From positions 2,418,001-2,482,000 of the forward strand of contig NZ_AP014723.1 in assembly GCF_001548035.1 (NCBI RefSeq): DNA of 64,000 nucleotides, given 5' to 3'. The position numbers were made by a program, and so were the translations under genes. The notes under the pieces are model-generated. The model worked only from the letters and a program-made list of their open reading frames with translations. It did not search any database and was not told the origin of the DNA. Positions within the stretch are counted from its first letter, which is position 1; each line of letters begins with the position of its first letter. The DNA is from Sulfurospirillum sp. UCH001. GTDB lineage: Bacteria; Campylobacterota; Campylobacteria; Campylobacterales; Sulfurospirillaceae. Below, piece after piece: positions 24,257 to 48,514 of the stretch.

Positions 24257-24324
24257 TTTAACTCTAAACTCACGTTCCCCACTTTAATCAACATCTAACA
24301 TACCTTTTTATATACTTCCATCCT

Positions 24325-24436
24325 CGTCATTAGGGAGTAGTCGCTCTTCTTTATCAAAGAAGTTGGCTTGTATCAACATAATTGAGTTTTACTCATGGTG
24401 CAAGCGGTTGAAAAACTTGGCAAGACTTTTGGCTAC
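24325..24436 (+). ncRNA. yybP-ykoY (Mn2+) riboswitch
   Basis: Conserved blocks are in order: GGGAGTAG (24333-24340), hairpin CTTCTTT/AAAGAAG, TATCAACATA, hairpin GAGT/ACTC, and GGCAAGAC (24419-24426). These match the yybP-ykoY class, which binds Mn2+ and turns on Mn exporters. It lies about 90 bases before a GDT1-family transporter, a well-known target. A small hairpin TTTAC/GTAAA after it may belong to the expression platform. The rest of the 335-base gap holds only the RND remnant. Confidence 0.85.
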
Positions 24437-24516
24437 AAAATATTTACGCTTTGTAAATGCTTTGTACTCAATGGTTGATGTCACAATGTATTTATAAAGT
24501 AACAGAGGAGACTTAC

Positions 24517-40526: not shown

Positions 40527-41914
40527 TGCAAAGACTCAATATTGTCATCACAGGGCACGTCGATCACGGTAAAAGCACGCTCATCGGGCGTCTGCTTGCC
40601 GACACAGACTCATTGCCACAAGGAAAACTAGAGAGTGTGAAAAAGATGTGTGAAAACAATGCACGTCCTTTTGAGTATGCCTTCTTGCTAGACGCTCTTG
40701 CCGATGAGCAAAAACAAGGCATTACCATTGATAGTGCGCGTGTCTTTTTCCAAAGTAAAAAACGAGAGTACATCATCATCGATGCTCCTGGTCACATCGA
40801 ATTTTTAAAAAATATGATCAGTGGAGCGTCTCGTGCAGAGGCAGCACTACTTCTTATCGATGCCAAAGAAGGTGTAGCGGAAAACTCTAAGCGTCATGGT
40901 ATGTTGCTTTCACTTTTAGGCATCAAACAAGTGGCAATTGTCGTTAACAAAATGGACTTGGTGAACTTTAGTGAAATCGCCTTTAACAAGCTCAAAATAG
41001 AGTACAGCGAATACCTAGCAACCCTAGGCATTAAGAGCGATATTTTTATACCGATCAGCGCACGTGAAGGTGTAAACCTTATCGAACACTCTGGCTCAAC
41101 GCCTTGGTATAAAGGACCAACTGTTTTAGAAATTTTAGACAGTTTTACAAGCGTCGAAGAAAAAGAGAACGATGACTTTAGAATGCCGTTACAAGACGTG
41201 TACAAGTTTACCCGTGACAACGATGATAGACGTATCTATGCGGGAACGGTCACCAGTGGCGAACTCAATGTAGGCGATGAAGTGGTCTTTTACCCTTCTC
41301 TTAAGCGTTCACGTGTAGCGAGTATCGAGAGTTTTAACACCTCTGTGAAAACACGTGTTAAAGAAAGTGAAGCCGTTGGTTTTACGCTTCAAACGCAAAT
41401 TTATGTACGTAACGGTGAAGTAGTTGCTCGTGCCGATCAGAGTGCTCCAAAAGTGAGCAATCGTTTTGAAGCCAACCTTTTCTGGTTGGGTGCAAAACCA
41501 CTAGAACTCGATAAACCGTACAAAATCAAGATAGGTTCGGCGCAAAGCACCATCTATCTAGAAGAGATCAAGCGCGTCATCGATGGCGATACGCTCGATC
41601 GTGCCGATGAGCCAAGTGTGGGACGTCATGAAGCAGCGTGCGTCATTTTTAGAGTGCATGACCTTTTGGCAATGGAACTCTTTGCTGAAAACCAAAAGCT
41701 AGGACGTTTTGTCATCGTCGATGAGTTTGATATCGCAGGTGGTGGTATCATTACAGAAGTACTAGAACAATACAGCAATCGTCGCACAAAGACCAGCACT
41801 ATTGCAAACACTTTGGTGGAAAAAGTGGGTGAAAATGCCAATTTTGAAGAAGAGTTATTTGAACTTCTTCGTAAATATTTTCCACATCAGTTTTCTACCG
41901 ACTCAGTCGGTTAG
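40526..41914 (+). CDS. cysN: Sulfate adenylyltransferase subunit 1 (GTPase)
   Basis: 462 residues, EF-Tu-like. G1 [15 protein letters not shown]3 [13 protein letters not shown]4 VNKMDLV, then two beta-barrel domains. No CysC kinase domain is fused. The C-terminus ends shortly after [12 protein letters not shown] 7-base-arm hairpin covers the stop codon, and the structured element described at 41898 follows. Confidence 0.96.
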
Positions 41915-41975
41915 CTTTAGTGCCACAGCGGCTAGCGTAGCCAAAGAAGCTTTGCTTTTTTGGCGTGATAAAATA
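41898..41975 (+). ncRNA. Structured intergenic element, copy 1
   Basis: After cysN: hairpin ACCGACT-C-AGTCGGT over the stop codon, then CCACAG, stem 1 GGCTA-GCG-TAGCC (41930-41942) and stem 2 CCAAAGAAGC-TTT-GCTTTTTTGG (41941-41963, ten pairs). Stems 1 and 2 share the CC at 41941-41942 and so cannot both be complete. The same order appears at 48356 with compensatory base changes. No T-run terminator follows. It may stabilise, process or regulate the mRNA. Confidence 0.6.
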
Positions 41976-41993
41976 ATTAAAAGAGGATACACA

Positions 41994-42200
41994 ATGAAAT
42001 TAACGATTAACGGTGATGTAAAAGAGATTAAAGACGGAGTAACACTTCCAGAGTTACTCATTATCGAAAATGTTGAGCAACCTGACATGGTCTCTGTTCA
42101 ACTTAATGATGAGTTTATCAGACAAGATGAACACAAAAGTGTTGTGCTTAAAGATGGCGATGAAATCAACTTTTTATACTTCATGGGAGGTGGCGCGTGA
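41994..42200 (+). CDS. hcyS: Sulfur-carrier protein of the thiocarboxylate methionine pathway
   Basis: 68 residues, ubiquitin-like ThiS/MoaD fold. The C-terminus ends LYFMGGGA: the carrier Gly-Gly is blocked by one alanine, as in HcyS of Wolinella succinogenes, where a metalloprotease must remove it before activation. I chose ATG 41994 (AAGAGG upstream); farther in-frame codons run through the structured element. Overlaps hcyF by four bases. Carries sulfide as a thiocarboxylate to MetY. Confidence 0.9.
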   Translation: MKLTINGDVKEIKDGVTLPELLIIENVEQPDMVSVQLNDEFIRQDEHKSVVLKDGDEINFLYFMGGGA

Positions 42201-43003
42201 GAGATTTTACGGACGAAGAATTAGAGCGTTATTCACGCCACATTATCCTTCAAGATGTTGGTATCGAAGGGCAAGAAAAAATTGCAAATTCTAAAGTGTT
42301 GGTCATTGGTGCAGGCGGGCTTGGTTCTCCTGTAGCACTTTACCTAGCCGCTGCAGGTGTAGGTGAAATTGGCATCGTGGATGGTGACGTGGTTGATTTG
42401 AGCAATCTTCAACGCCAAGTCATTCACACAACTGCTGATGTAAGTGTACCTAAAGTGCTCTCCGCCAAAGCGAAGATGGAAGCCATTAACCCCAATGTAA
42501 AAGTAACGGTCTATCAAAAGTTTTTGGATGCATCGAACATCTTAGACATCGTGAAAGGCTACGACTTCGTTATCGATGGAACGGACAATTTTTCATCAAA
42601 ATTCTTGATTAACGATGCGTGTATCTTAGCAAACGTACCGTATTCTCACGGTGGTATTTTGCGTTTTGGTGGACAGACGATGACCATTAAACCTGGTCAA
42701 AGTGCATGTTATGCGTGTGTATTTGACAGCCCTCCTCCAGCCAATGCCATTCCTACATGCTCAAGTGCGGGCATTTTAGGAGCGGTTGCGGGTATGCTGG
42801 GAACGATTCAAGCCGCAGAAGCGTTAAAATACATCGTTGGTGTAGGTGAACCACTGTATAATAGACTCTTAACGTTTGATGCAAAAACGATGAACTTTAG
42901 AAATGTGAATTTCAAAAAGAACCCTAAATGCCGTGTATGCGGTGGCGAAGGCATCAAAGAGATTAGAGACTACGAAGCCGTTGTATGTGAGGCAAAATTA
43001 TGA
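42197..43003 (+). CDS. hcyF: HcyS-adenylating enzyme (ThiF/MoeB family)
   Basis: 268 residues from GTG. Opens with RYSRHIILQDVGIEGQEKI and nucleotide loop VIGAGGLGSPVALYLAAAG, then IDGTDNFSSKFLINDAC. Two zinc CXXC pairs (ACYACVF and CRVCGG) and a possible catalytic Cys in PTCSSAGILG are present. It should adenylate the HcyS C-terminus after alanine removal. GTGA overlap with hcyS and ATGA overlap with hcyD. Confidence 0.92.
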   Translation: MRDFTDEELERYSRHIILQDVGIEGQEKIANSKVLVIGAGGLGSPVALYLAAAGVGEIGIVDGDVVDLSNLQRQVIHTTADVSVPKVLSAKAKMEAINPNVKVTVYQKFLDASNILDIVKGYDFVIDGTDNFSSKFLINDACILANVPYSHGGILRFGGQTMTIKPGQSACYACVFDSPPPANAIPTCSSAGILGAVAGMLGTIQAAEALKYIVGVGEPLYNRLLTFDAKTMNFRNVNFKKNPKCRVCGGEGIKEIRDYEAVVCEAKL

Positions 43004-43401
43004 TAAAAATCCCTAACAGTGCGTACAATGAGATGGTTCTCCACGCACTAAAAGATAAACCCATTGAAGCGTGTGGTTATCTTGCTGGGCTTAATGGCGA
43101 AGTGAAATATGCCATCCCTATGAAAAATACGGATGAGAGCAACGAACACTTTAGCTTTGACCCACAAGAACAGTTTGATGTGTTTAAAAAGACACAAAAA
43201 GAGGGGCTTCGTTTGATTGGGGTGTACCATTCACACCCTGAAACCCCTGCACGTCCAAGTGAAGAAGACATTCGTTTGGCGTATGATCCTAATGTGAGCT
43301 ATGTGATTATCTCACTTGCGGGTGCAGAGCCTGATATGAAGTCATTTATTATTAAAAACAAAACGGTTGAAAAAGAAGAAATTGAAATAATTTTAGATTG
43401 A
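43000..43401 (+). CDS. hcyD: JAMM metalloprotease for HcyS maturation
   Basis: 133 residues. Complete JAMM/MPN+ zinc motif: Glu in IEACGYL, then YHSHPETPARPSEEDI (H-x-H-P...S-x-x-D). By comparison with W. succinogenes HcyD it cuts the last alanine from HcyS. Four-base overlap with hcyF. Followed by a 165-base spacer with a strong stem. Confidence 0.92.
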   Translation: MIKIPNSAYNEMVLHALKDKPIEACGYLAGLNGEVKYAIPMKNTDESNEHFSFDPQEQFDVFKKTQKEGLRLIGVYHSHPETPARPSEEDIRLAYDPNVSYVIISLAGAEPDMKSFIIKNKTVEKEEIEIILD

Positions 43402-43438
43402 TGAAAAAGGCGCGTAGAAAAAATCCGAATAAAACACT

Positions 43439-43492
43439 TTGAGCCGATGGGACGAATAAGCGGAGCGTTTCGGGGCTCCCATCGTGGCTCAA
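43439..43492 (+). ncRNA. Long stem-loop between hcyD and sir
   Basis: TTGAGCC-GATGGGA (43439-43452) pairs with TCCCATC-GT-GGCTCAA (43477-43492), 14 pairs with a two-base bulge. The 24-base inner part can form a small CGAA/TTCG hairpin. No T-run follows and sir starts 75 bases later, so it is not a plain terminator. It could be an mRNA stabiliser, a processing site or a ligand-binding leader. The remaining spacer 43402-43566 shows only the AAGGAG of sir. Confidence 0.55.
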
Positions 43493-43566
43493 CCGTGTTG
43501 CAAGAGGGTTTATTTTGAAGCTGCTTTCTTCATAAAAACGTTTACCTGTAACAACAAGGAGTTACG

Positions 43567-45855
43567 ATGAGCAGATATGAAATTCCCCAAATGGTCTATG
43601 ATGACCTTGCTACGTTCAAAAAAAACCATGCCGATTTTTTAGCAGGCAAACTTGATGAACTTACCTTTAAAACAATGCGTGTTCCTTTTGGTGTTTACGA
43701 GCAACGTGAAGCCAACACCTTTATGGTACGTATCAAACTTGCAGGTGGTATCGTTACCCCAAAACAGCTTTTAACATTGGCTGATTTAGCACAAAAGTAC
43801 GCGCATGAAGCCATTCACATCACCACGCGTGGTGGTGCACAACTCCACTACGTGAAGATTGAAGATATTATTGCTATTATCGAAACCTTGCACAGTATTG
43901 ACCTTAGCGGTCGTGGCGGCGGAGGAAATACCGTTCGTAATATCATGGCAGACCCACTTGCAGGTACTGCACCTGATGAAGTGTTTGATGTCTCACCTTA
44001 CGCACTTACACTCACCTCTAAAATGCTAGAACAAAAAGACTCTTTTGCGCTTCCACGAAAATTCAAAATCACGTTTAGTGGCTCAGAAGCAGACCGTGGT
44101 TACGCGACCATCCATGACGTTGGATTTATCGCTAAAATCCAAGATGGTGTAAAAGGCTTTAAACTCTTTACCGCGGGTGGTATGGGTGCAAAATCTCGTT
44201 TGGGAACGAAACTTCGTGATTTCGTGCCAGACACTGAGGTATTCCTCTACTCTCAAGCCATCAAACAAGTGTTTGACAAATACGGCAACCGTAAGAACAA
44301 ACACGCCGCGCGTCTTCGCTTCTTGTTTGAAGATTTAGGGTTGGAAGAGTTTAATAAACTTCTTGAAGTTGAATTAGAAGCAGTAAAAGCCAAAGGCGAT
44401 TGGGAACTTCCTATCACTGAGATTGAAAGAACAGTAGGCGATACCACGCATGAGCCATTTAGCGTTCCTGAAAACATAAAAAAATGGTGGAACCGTTACG
44501 TGTATGCCCAAAAACAAGCCGGTTTTTATGGCTGTAAAGTACCCGTGCATTTAGGCGACATTCACTTTGAAAACGCACGTGCTCTTGCAAATGCGCTTCT
44601 GCCATATGGAGAAGATGTTATGCGTTTTACGGGTGACCAAAACCTCTACATCCGTAACCTCACAGGTCCACAAATGGCAAGTTTGCATGACATCTTGCAA
44701 GCCTTCTCTAAAGATGTGGCAAAACCAACCCTCTTTGGTGATATGGTAGCGTGTACAGGTGCTGCAACATGTCAGTTAGGTATTGCTCGTCCTCGTGGTG
44801 CAGTCGATGCGATTCAAAAACGTCTTAATAAACTCATCGATGAGCGTGACTATGACGCCCTTCAAGGCTTTAAAATTCATTTATCGGGTTGTCCAAACAG
44901 TTGTGGTAAACACCTCATCGGGGATCTTGGTTTCTTTGGAAAAGTCCAACGTAATGAAGGCTACTCTTACCCAGCATACAACGTTGTTGCAGGCTCACGC
45001 ACGTCAGGTGATGGCAGTGTTTACGCACAAAAAGCAGGCGATGTCGCAGCGTTTCATGTGCCAGCTTTTGTTGAAGAAGTGCTCGATACATGGCTAAAAC
45101 ACGTAAAAGCCTATAAAAGTTTTGCGGATTGGATTGATGATGGCGGACTTGCGATTATCACTGAAATCAGTAAAAAATACGTGGATATTCCATCGTTCAA
45201 AGAAGATAAAAACCCATACTTTGACTACGATGCCGTGGAACTCTTCTCTTTAAAAGGTCGCGGTACAGGTGAATGTAGTGCAGGTATGTACGACCTCATC
45301 GAAGCCGATAAAAAAGCTCTTAAAGAGGCACTTGAGAAAGAAGAGAAAAATTTTGAGCTGATTCGTCTTCTCTCCGCTCGTATGCTTTTAGTGACTCGTG
45401 GTGAAGATGCACGCGATAAAGAGGCCGTACTTAAGGCATTTAAACAACACTTTATCGAAACAACACTTCTGAATGCTTACTTTGGGACAATGTTAGAGGG
45501 TGATGCGGATGAGAAATCGATTGAGCTCGCGGAAGAAGTCATTAAACTCTATGAAACAATGGATCATACGCTAAAATTTGCGAAAGAGAAAGAGCTAGCC
45601 GCGGCAGCAGCAACAGAAGCAAAACCAGTAGCTTCGGCACACTTTAAGGATCTTAGTGGTGTAGCGTGCCCAATGAACTTTGTCAAAACCAAAATGGAAC
45701 TCTCTAAAATCGGCAGTGGCGAAGTCTTGGAAATTTTACTGGATGATGGAGCACCGATTGATAACGTCCCAAAATCTGTTGCGAGTGAAGGTCACACCGT
45801 CGAGGCAACCACTAAAGAGGGTAACGGCTGGCGTGTAAGGATCGTGAAAAAATGA
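43567..45855 (+). CDS. Sulfite reductase fused to a TusA-like domain
   Basis: 762 residues. The sulfite/nitrite reductase core (about 1-560) has THITTRGGAQLHYV-type and siroheme-[4Fe-4S] motifs: CTGAATCQLGIARPRGA and LSGCPNSCGKHLIGDLGF, giving the four cluster cysteines. A helical linker (about 560-690, ending in an Ala-rich stretch) leads to a TusA/SirA-like domain (from about 693) with sulfur-carrier Cys701 in GVACPMNFVKTK. Reduces sulfite to sulfide for HcyS loading. ATG follows AAGGAG. Confidence 0.93.
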   Translation: MSRYEIPQMVYDDLATFKKNHADFLAGKLDELTFKTMRVPFGVYEQREANTFMVRIKLAGGIVTPKQLLTLADLAQKYAHEAIHITTRGGAQLHYVKIEDIIAIIETLHSIDLSGRGGGGNTVRNIMADPLAGTAPDEVFDVSPYALTLTSKMLEQKDSFALPRKFKITFSGSEADRGYATIHDVGFIAKIQDGVKGFKLFTAGGMGAKSRLGTKLRDFVPDTEVFLYSQAIKQVFDKYGNRKNKHAARLRFLFEDLGLEEFNKLLEVELEAVKAKGDWELPITEIERTVGDTTHEPFSVPENIKKWWNRYVYAQKQAGFYGCKVPVHLGDIHFENARALANALLPYGEDVMRFTGDQNLYIRNLTGPQMASLHDILQAFSKDVAKPTLFGDMVACTGAATCQLGIARPRGAVDAIQKRLNKLIDERDYDALQGFKIHLSGCPNSCGKHLIGDLGFFGKVQRNEGYSYPAYNVVAGSRTSGDGSVYAQKAGDVAAFHVPAFVEEVLDTWLKHVKAYKSFADWIDDGGLAIITEISKKYVDIPSFKEDKNPYFDYDAVELFSLKGRGTGECSAGMYDLIEADKKALKEALEKEEKNFELIRLLSARMLLVTRGEDARDKEAVLKAFKQHFIETTLLNAYFGTMLEGDADEKSIELAEEVIKLYETMDHTLKFAKEKELAAAAATEAKPVASAHFKDLSGVACPMNFVKTKMELSKIGSGEVLEILLDDGAPIDNVPKSVASEGHTVEATTKEGNGWRVRIVKK

Positions 45856-47120
45856 GTACCCTAGGCATTGCACTCACGCCGAAACGCACGCTTTTGATCG
45901 GAGCTGGCAAAGTCGCAGCGCAGAAAGCACGAGTGCTTGATAGTCTTGATTTTGCGTATGAAATTGTTGCAGAATCAAGACTTGATGCCTACTTTGAAAC
46001 CAAAAAACTACGCCTCAAGCCTTTTGAAGATGCTGATGCAGAGGGCTTTGAGGTGATTATCGATGCGACGGGTAATGAGCATGTGACCAACCGTCTTGTA
46101 GCCCTTAAACCTCATCTTCATTTCTGGCTCAATGTCGTCGATGTTCCAGAGCTCTGTGATTTTTACTTTAGTGCCCTTACGCGCCGTGGCGACATCCAAG
46201 TCGCCGTCAGTAGTGGCGGTAGTTCGCCTACCTTAGCGCAAGTCATTCGTGATAAGATAGAACGTCTTTTACCCCGTGAACTCACCTCTTTGATAGAACG
46301 CCTCAAAAACGAGCGTAAAAAGCCTGATCGCGATCTTGAAAACTTAAAAACTATCGCTAAAGAGGGTGTGGGGAAAGTGTTCCTCATCGGTTGTGGAACA
46401 GGCTACATGGGCAATCTCACCTTAGATGCACTAAACGCTTTTGAGCTTTTAGATGTTGCTCTAGTCGATGCTCTGGTATCTCCTGAAATTCGAGCTCTCA
46501 TCCCTGCTTCGTGTAAAATCGTTGATGTGAGCAAAAAAAAGGGTTTTCACTCTAAAACACAAGATGAAATCAACGCACTCTTACTCGAATACGCCAAACA
46601 AGGCTTGGTGGTTGGACGTCTTAAAGGTGGCGACCCACTTCTGTTTGGTCGTTTGGGTGAAGAGAAGCAGATCTTGGTGCGACATGGCATCGCTTTTGAA
46701 GTAATCAATGGCATTACCTCAGCTCTAAGATCGTGTACGGTTTCAGGTATCGTTCCTACGATTCGCGATATTTCCAAAGGGGTCAGCATTGTTTCTGCAC
46801 ACCTAAGGGAGACACTATTTAATGATGAGTGGATACCGCTCATTCGTCAGCCTTTACACACGGTTATCGTATTAATGGCGCACAGTTTTGCGAAAAAAAT
46901 TGAAGATGCCATCGCAAAAGAAGGCATTGATGAAAACCTTCCTGCCGCATTTGTCTCGAAAATTGACCTGCCTGATCAGGTGACCATAGTGGGAACTGTG
47001 GGAAAATTAGATAAAATGAGTACTTTATGTGCTACTCCTGCCGTGCTCATCATTGGTGAGTGTGTCGCAAAAGAGAACATAATACCTGCCGAAAATAGCG
47101 GCAAAATTATTTATATATAA
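45852..47120 (+). CDS. cysG: Siroheme synthase (CysG-like, two-domain)
   Basis: 422 residues. N-terminal precorrin-2 dehydrogenase/ferrochelatase part (about 1-150: LLIGAGKVAAQKARVL, NVVDVPELCDFYF, VSSGGSSPTLAQ) and C-terminal SAM-dependent uroporphyrinogen-III methyltransferase part (about 175-415: FLIGCGTGYMGNLT, GRLKGGDPLLFGR). Makes the siroheme of the sulfite reductase just upstream, overlapping it by four bases. The order of domains is as in CysG. Confidence 0.94.
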   Translation: MSTLGIALTPKRTLLIGAGKVAAQKARVLDSLDFAYEIVAESRLDAYFETKKLRLKPFEDADAEGFEVIIDATGNEHVTNRLVALKPHLHFWLNVVDVPELCDFYFSALTRRGDIQVAVSSGGSSPTLAQVIRDKIERLLPRELTSLIERLKNERKKPDRDLENLKTIAKEGVGKVFLIGCGTGYMGNLTLDALNAFELLDVALVDALVSPEIRALIPASCKIVDVSKKKGFHSKTQDEINALLLEYAKQGLVVGRLKGGDPLLFGRLGEEKQILVRHGIAFEVINGITSALRSCTVSGIVPTIRDISKGVSIVSAHLRETLFNDEWIPLIRQPLHTVIVLMAHSFAKKIEDAIAKEGIDENLPAAFVSKIDLPDQVTIVGTVGKLDKMSTLCATPAVLIIGECVAKENIIPAENSGKIIYI

Positions 47121-47130
47121 AGAGGATTTT

Positions 47131-48363
47131 ATGGGATTTACCACCAAAGCATTGCATGCCAAACCAACAAATAAAGATACTTATGGCGCAATGCGCTTTC
47201 CCATCTACCAAAGCTCAGCCTTTGAGTTTGAAAAAGCAGAAGATTTGGAGGCCGTTTTTAAAGGTCAAAAGATGGGACATGTTTACACACGCTCTTCAAA
47301 CCCTTCTATTGAAGAGTTTGAACTCAAAGTTAAAACTATCAGCGGTGCTTTTGGAGTTATCGCTACGGCAACAGGTATGGCAGCCATTTCAAATGCTCTT
47401 TTTGCGCTGGTAAAAAGTGGTGACAACATCATCACGACGAGTTTCCTTTTTGGCAACACACTCTCTTTGTTCCAAACACTGTTCAGTGATTTTGATGTGG
47501 AAGTACGCTATGTTGATGTGAACGATCTTGAGGCTATTAAGAAAAATATCGATGCTAGAACACGTCTTCTTTTTTGCGAAAGTGTGAGCAATCCACAACT
47601 CATCGTACCTGATTTCTTGGCTATCAAGAGCGTGCTTAAAGAATATAACATTCCATTGATCGTCGATACGACAATGACACCATGGAATATCTTCGATGCC
47701 CGCAAAAATGGTGTTGATGTGGAGATTATCTCTGCAACAAAATACCTCAGTGGTGGTGGTCATGTTTTAGGTGGACTTATTGTTGACAATGGTACGTTTA
47801 ATTGGAAAAATCATGCAAACTTGGAACCATTTTTCAAAAAATTTGGTCCTTTTGCTTTTATGGCACGCCTTCGTAAAGAGACTTTTAGAAACCTTGGAGC
47901 TACACTTACAGCTCAAAGTGCATACCTGTTAAGTCTTGGTCTTGAAACATTGGATTTAAGAGTTCAAAGAAGTTGTTCCAATGCTCTTGCCGTTGCAAAA
48001 CATCTCCAAGAAAGAAGCGAGGTCATAAGTGTTGACTACCCACTTTTAGAGGGTTCTCGCGCTTATGCCAATGCTTCAAAACAGTTTAGTGGTGGTGGGG
48101 CGATCGTAACGTTTAGCCTTGCAAATAAAGAGAAAGCCTACACATTTTTAAATAATCTTTCTATCATCAAGCGCGGAACAAACATTCAAGACAATAAATC
48201 GCTTGCCATTGCTCCGTATCATACGATTTATGCTGAGTACAGCGATGAGCAAAAAGCTTCGTATGAACTCAATGAGGGAATGATTCGTCTTTCTGTAGGT
48301 ATCGAGGATTTGGAAGACTTGATCGCCGACATCGATAAAGCACTTGAAATTTCTGCCTCATAA
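47131..48363 (+). CDS. metY: O-acetylhomoserine sulfhydrylase (MetY-type)
   Basis: 410 residues, PLP fold type I of the Cys/Met metabolism family. YTRSSNPSIEEFE, ATGMAAISNALFAL, LIVDTTMTPW and the PLP lysine in ISATKYLSGGGHVLGG are in order. With HcyS thiocarboxylate as sulfur donor it makes homocysteine. It is the last step of the operon's pathway. The end of the gene overlaps a GCCTC-ATAA-GAGGC hairpin. Confidence 0.94.
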   Translation: MGFTTKALHAKPTNKDTYGAMRFPIYQSSAFEFEKAEDLEAVFKGQKMGHVYTRSSNPSIEEFELKVKTISGAFGVIATATGMAAISNALFALVKSGDNIITTSFLFGNTLSLFQTLFSDFDVEVRYVDVNDLEAIKKNIDARTRLLFCESVSNPQLIVPDFLAIKSVLKEYNIPLIVDTTMTPWNIFDARKNGVDVEIISATKYLSGGGHVLGGLIVDNGTFNWKNHANLEPFFKKFGPFAFMARLRKETFRNLGATLTAQSAYLLSLGLETLDLRVQRSCSNALAVAKHLQERSEVISVDYPLLEGSRAYANASKQFSGGGAIVTFSLANKEKAYTFLNNLSIIKRGTNIQDNKSLAIAPYHTIYAEYSDEQKASYELNEGMIRLSVGIEDLEDLIADIDKALEISAS

Positions 48364-48434
48364 GAGGCAAGCTTCCGTTCCACAGTGGCTAACGTAGCCT
48401 AGAGAGCTTCGCTTTTTAGGCGTATAAAATAATA
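48356..48434 (+). ncRNA. Structured intergenic element, copy 2
   Basis: After metY: hairpin over the stop codon (GCCTC-ATAA-GAGGC), then CCACAG, stem 1 GGCTA-ACG-TAGCC (48387-48399) and stem 2 CCTAGAGAGC-TTC-GCTTTTTAGG (48398-48420, ten pairs). Compared with copy 1 the loop bases differ, and in stem 2 an A-T pair has become T-A, with other sites exchanged for G-T. The downstream ATAAAATAAT is also shared. Confidence 0.6.
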
Positions 48435-48439
48435 ACGGT

Positions 48440-48492
48440 GCCCTATTTTGGGCTAACTCGAAACGTAAAGACTTTTACTCTTTAGACGTCGA
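48440..48492 (+). promoter_or_regulatory. Two hairpins in the mnmA leader
   Basis: GCCC-TATTTT-GGGC (48440-48453) and a longer bulged stem (48458-48492: TCGA, CGT and AAAG pair with CTTT, ACG and TCGA). They lie between the structured element and the mnmA start. Function unknown; possibly a terminator-like or processing signal between metY and mnmA. Confidence 0.4.
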
Positions 48493-48514
48493 AATAAAAG
48501 AGGTTATATACTAT

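Follow-up and report, generated by a model that had tools for sequence, protein, structure and literature searches.

Two folded, RNA-like sequences lie in one sulfur operon of Sulfurospirillum sp. UCH001, and they raise the question of whether they belong to the regulation of that operon or to a repeat that merely landed there. In the window, by which we mean the whole stretch of 64,000 nucleotides that was analysed, the operon runs cysH, cysD, cysN, thiS, a moeB/thiF-like gene, a desampylase-like gene, a sulfite/nitrite reductase-like gene, a cysG-like gene, a metY-like gene and mnmA. The two copies lie at the ends of cysN and metY (Table 1), much as a sequence-only reading had placed them. 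Aligned locally, they score 56, against a maximum of 19 in 200 shuffles and 26 for the best other place in the window, and their folding z-scores are -2.7 and -3.3. As had been noticed, each copy has its left hairpin over the stop codon (cysN TAG, 41912-41914; metY TAA, 48361-48363), because the element itself supplies both stop codons.

Table 1. Positions of the two copies and of other features named in the text (window coordinates, unless a locus is given)
Feature	Position	Strand	Description and basis
Copy 1	41893-41966	+	Spans the end of cysN and gives its last codons and stop; R1 covariance match of 92.6 bits, 41892-41967
Copy 1, left hairpin	41897-41911	+	ACCGAC-TCA-GTCGGT; read from the sequence, helix 1 covaries
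Copy 1, core (28 nt)	41913-41940	+	AGCTTTAGTGCCACAGCGGCTAGCGTAG, with GTAG at its end; nine-copy alignment
Copy 1, right hairpin	41940-41964	+	11 bp with TTT loop, 41940-41950 paired with 41954-41964, then end of CGT; helix 3, with strong covariation and G-T polarity
Copy 2	48351-48423	+	Spans the end of metY and gives its stop codon; R1 match of 83.2 bits, 48350-48424
Copy 2, left hairpin	48355-48368	+	GCCTC-ATAA-GAGGC; read from the sequence, helix 1
Copy 2, core	48370-48397	+	AGCTTCCGTTCCACAGTGGCTAACGTAG, differing from copy 1 at five places; nine-copy alignment
Copy 2, right hairpin	48397-48421	+	11 bp with TTC loop, 48397-48407 paired with 48411-48421; helix 3
Related composite repeat	cysN-thiS gap in L093, L099, L100, L101; 3' of metY in L116, L123	opposite	
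Candidate mnmA leader	48437-48500	+	No second copy in its own genome
RF00080 match	24320-24451	+	54.7 bits (Rfam)

Structure of the element

The sequence-only reading had taken the two copies for an RNA switch acting in cis on the sulfur operon, in which a short stem (GGCTA/TAGCC) and a ten-pair stem would compete, and the finding of two copies in one such operon, both folding better than shuffles and covarying, is what such a switch would lead one to expect. The compensatory changes in the long stem were borne out, although it has 11 bp rather than ten; over all paired positions, 12 of 19 pairs change on both sides among the nine best copies of the genome, and no shuffle reaches 12. The short stem did not hold up, since in many copies the core is followed by TAGTC or TAGTT; as it is not general, the case for competing stems is weak. 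Searches of Rfam also count against a switch, with no family matching the element in the window at the gathering score and none matching the cysN copy up to an E-value of 5. Elsewhere in the window there is an Rfam match to the yybP-ykoY manganese riboswitch family (Table 1).

Across copies, the unit measures about 74 nt and consists of TCT, a left hairpin usually of the form GCC..GGC, a conserved 28-nt core ending in GTAG (typically AGCTTTAGTGCC(A/T/C)(C/T)AGCGGCTAGCGTAG), a right hairpin of about 11 bp and a terminal CGT. C-G-T-A-G is invariant in the nine-copy alignment, and 110 right hairpins sit directly after GTAG-type motifs. The edges at TCT and CGT are sharp, with information content at background beyond the unit and near zero in the left flank beyond TCT. 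Three variable bases and then about four A follow the CGT; of the shared ATAAAATAAT reported at this end, the CGT and these A are conserved, and the rest is mostly A-rich flank with background conservation. The earlier remark that no T-run follows was correct, the flank being A-rich, and the element thus does not fit an intrinsic terminator, in which a G+C-rich stem precedes a run of T. Integron attC sites were also rejected on the sequence, which has no paired core sites and occurs in scattered rather than arrayed copies.

Related forms have the GTAG hairpin and CGT in common with the element; their middle part is shorter or of another sequence (AAGCACCAAAGGTGCG...CCCAGTGTTAACGTAG), or they carry an additional hairpin. 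One composite repeat joins a GAGTTCTT..AAGAACTC hairpin, a GTAG hairpin and an AGCACC..GGTGC hairpin, and has the GTAG hairpin and CGT in common with the element. Head-to-tail arrangements also occur, with three copies at 75-nt spacing 5' of a dnaK-like gene (L206) and two at 86 nt in G024.

Dispersal and occupancy of single sites

A covariance model built from nine own-genome copies (R1), run together with BLAST of the same genome, gave 26 copies at E<1e-3, of which 18 at E<1e-7, on both strands of the 2.61-Mb genome. All 24 genomes of the genus examined have matches at E<=0.01, from 8 to 87 per genome. At least 48 of 298 evenly sampled genomes of the phylum, spread over four families, match at E<=0.001, counts here being lower bounds since the phylum scan scored the best 16 candidates per genome. 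In public genomes, the matches listed for the exact 28-nt core come from Sulfurospirillum, Sulfurimonas, Sulfuricurvum and Sulfurovaceae, from further Campylobacterota MAGs, of which some are labelled Helicobacteraceae, and from one record labelled only Proteobacteria. Nearly all copies are intergenic. About 70% of those with both neighbours called sit between co-directional genes, where sense copies are in mild excess over antisense ones (54 vs 34, p=0.04).

The neighbours of the own-genome copies have no common theme. They include ribonucleotide reductase beta, NrdG2-like, asparaginase, uracil-DNA glycosylase, heavy-metal ATPase and EAL-domain protein genes; TrmL-like, PurU, IspG, PriA, histidine kinase, YciA-like, CheB-like and leucyl aminopeptidase genes; and UbiE, ClpS/ClpA, GlnA, penicillin-binding protein, Apt, TtcA-like and RecO genes. 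No enrichment of sulfur genes was seen among neighbours in this genome. A metabolite-sensing riboswitch of sulfur genes would show a consistent sense association with them, and instead the neighbours are unrelated and many copies are antisense. The proposed tie to sulfate-to-methionine conversion therefore fails: the covariance model returned about 26 copies beside unrelated genes, which is the outcome that the sequence-only reading itself had named as its refutation, and most relatives have the same operon without the copies, both of which speak against the switch. The dispersed REP-like repeat that had been named as the main alternative proved to be the right description.

Single sites were compared among relatives. 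Across 17 genomes, the cysN-thiS gap holds the element in three (G000, G033, G020), a related element in the opposite orientation in four (G019, G022, G021, G025) and an apparent decayed remnant of the left hairpin in two (G015, G016); in the remaining eight it is empty, with only a few bases separating cysN from thiS. Such a pattern identifies the copies as insertions. The insertion point is common to G033 and G020, just past the cysN stop, and lies inside the cysN end in G000, and this one short gap appears to have been hit by at least three separate insertions. At the metY stop, the element is present in G000 only and absent from the 18 others of 19 metY neighbourhoods. Downstream, a conserved leader precedes mnmA, and the gap that separates the two is filled in 6 of 17 genomes, by the element in G014, G025 and G031 and by the related one in G012, G021 and G026, with neither in the other eleven. 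Several relatives (L111, L113, L114, L116, L120, L124) have a tRNA gene between metY and mnmA, which makes this junction a hotspot of change in the genus.

The mnmA leader itself (Table 1) is a separate candidate feature. In 17 genomes of the genus its 23-nt centre has one and the same sequence and in each case precedes mnmA; G024 and the other 57 genera sampled gave no match, and the leader was not seen before mnmA in G032 and G034. The leader folds (z -2.3) into a hairpin with compensating arm changes between species, followed by UAAAGA-CUUUUAC-UCUUUA, whose stem closes a 7-nt loop (C-U-UUU-A-C) and which resembles the anticodon arm of tRNA-Lys(UUU). This tRNA is a known substrate of MnmA. 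Autogenous control of mnmA by anticodon mimicry would be a reasonable hypothesis, and a yeast aminoacyl-tRNA synthetase provides a precedent for mimicry of this kind (PMC6542539).

Covariation and the strand under selection

Among 91 distinct copies from the phylum, 97.2% of cells pair, and in 17 of 19 pairs both partners have changed. Double-change cells number 367, compared with 78 in shuffles, and a one-base shift of the partner abolishes the signal. These loci were picked by the core and not by the hairpins; hairpin covariation is thus not built into the set, though the alignment was fitted to the model, and conservation of the core is in part by construction. Selection on structure, as suggested from the two copies at the outset, is strongly supported.

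The two hairpins differ in their wobble pairs. Nearly none of either kind occur in the left hairpin; in the right one, the ratio of G-T to A-C cells is 121:7, or 119:9 with symmetrical scoring and duplicates removed, a bias present at many stem positions in cells that are not all independent events, some being shared by related copies through descent. Because G-T on one strand is A-C on the other, the folded form is one fixed strand. Were the operon mRNA the selected molecule, the bias would reverse in antisense copies, and it does not: between co-directional genes, G-T and A-C cells stand at 50:2 where the copy is sense and at 33:4 where it is antisense. Selection therefore acts on a strand of the element itself, be it single-stranded DNA or an RNA transcribed from the element. 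The unchanged polarity of antisense copies also counts against the RNA switch of the sulfur operon, which on all the evidence is almost certainly wrong.

The polarity would also fit an RNA made from each element, the copies then being a family of small-RNA genes, and a TATAAT does lie shortly 5' of one copy (L033). No promoter is common to the copies, however, in keeping with the near absence of information to the left of TCT, and the window copies end without a T-run. Tens of copies between operon genes would also be unusual for small-RNA genes, and we regard this explanation as very improbable.

Several sites hold the element in different species, with compensated hairpins and in both orientations, and such persistence means either that settled copies are useful or that they are refreshed by conversion or re-insertion. 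The first of these corresponds to a domesticated intercistronic element, which arrived as a mobile one and whose settled copies were kept for the action of their hairpins in place, for instance in stabilising mRNA upstream of them, as marks for processing or as binding sites of a chromosome protein. In-place hairpin roles of this sort have been proposed for enterobacterial REPs. The preference for co-directional gaps and the sense excess agree with domestication, and we leave it a minor share of belief because of this retention at several sites across species, with compensation in both hairpins. The shared polarity of antisense copies and the sporadic occupancy of sites tell against it, re-insertion or gene conversion is another possible source of the persistence, and the core conservation of the phylum set derives partly from the choice of loci; on balance, domestication seems unlikely.

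Probable mobility in trans and comparison with known systems

The explanation that we favour is a REP-like element moved in trans as single-stranded DNA, to which, as a whole statement, we give a probability of about 0.72. Its parts differ in strength: the dispersed, insertional nature taken alone is very likely, whereas an HUH enzyme as the mover is only somewhat better than an even bet. Each copy would result from a single insertion event, in which a short mobile DNA element of the REP (repetitive extragenic palindrome) kind, itself non-autonomous, entered the A-rich stretch that separates a stop codon from the ribosome-binding site that follows. We infer that what moves is probably single-stranded DNA, always the same strand of the element, and that it is recognised in trans by a tyrosine transposase (HUH, of IS200/IS605 or TnpA-REP type), and recognition of this kind would account for the keeping of the hairpins. 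The invariant TCT at the left edge would offer a CT for TnpA-REP-type cleavage. On this reading the window copies have no sulfur-specific role and at most act on the mRNA as any intercistronic hairpin would. Several points weigh against mobility in trans, namely the want of a flanked Y1 gene, the different terminal repeats of the genome's own Y1 gene, a length about twice that of a classical REP, a persistence of some copies at shared sites beyond what dead insertions would lead one to expect, and the fact that no transposition event was observed directly.

None of the 30 Y1_Tnp loci of the genus has an element match in its 1.5-kb flanks, and no RAYT gene flanked by copies was found among them. 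One Y1 gene does lie inside an 8-kb element locus, and it carries its own GGGGTCAGG repeat and no flanking copies. Genes between close pairs of copies encode asparaginase, a membrane protein and guaB-like proteins, with no transposase. The genome's only Y1_Tnp gene (L029, 1401-2243, near 363 kb) lies between inverted repeats GGGGTCAGGGCTAAACTTTTAACTTTTT; these terminal repeats are of the GGGGTCAG type, unlike the element, and mark a TIRYT-type element. TIRYTs, described in PMC3733652 as RAYT genes with GGGGWSAS terminal repeats, share genomes with the element and differ in having terminal repeats unrelated to it in sequence. Partial repeats like those of this Y1 gene (AAAAGTTTAGCCCTGACCCC) also occur near mnmA in relatives.

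Palindrome-bearing MITEs derived from IS200/IS605 are short and non-coding, with hairpins near both ends and no evident target duplication. By analogy the element would resemble them in all of these respects; it differs in that no full-length partner with the same ends was found. It is conceivable, though we doubt it, that the copies represent an unnamed class of mobile single-stranded DNA in Campylobacterota, with two hairpins, a near-fixed 28-nt core, a mover in trans unmarked by flanking copies, repeated entry into the same few-base operon gaps, and some copies fixed and useful. For annotation, this reading accounts for convincing, covarying RNA-like folds in Sulfurospirillum, Sulfurimonas and Sulfuricurvum as copies of a mobile element, and it helps to avoid taking them for riboswitches. 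At single sites, cysN-thiS among them, a natural series of empty, filled, inverted and decayed states is available for studying how REP-like elements spread when no transposase lies beside them and how they affect operons.

The nearest known counterparts are the GTAG-tagged REPs, which Di Nocera et al. (2013) report from epsilon-division genomes including Sulfurovum (PMC3733652); our literature search found GTAG repeats from that division and no description of the present element. According to PMC3733652 and PMC8266576, TnpA-REP/RAYT enzymes bind REPs as single strands and cleave them at CT, and the G-T polarity is consistent with one-strand binding and cleavage of this kind, if indirectly. 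A REP is a single palindrome of 20-40 bp, whereas the element, at about 74 nt, is roughly twice as long and has two hairpins and a core, so that the GTAG hairpin makes up its right half only. REPs are typically found in head-to-head pairs and would be expected to flank a RAYT gene; the element is mostly single or tandem and flanks none at the 30 Y1_Tnp loci of the genus. Its right half may overlap one of the GTAG families of PMC3733652. Like the GTAG-tagged REPs, the element has GTAG at the 5' foot of a hairpin, is dispersed, intergenic and present in high copy, and has a stem that is variable in sequence yet paired, with G-T pairs and one strand used, and it is best filed as REP-like.
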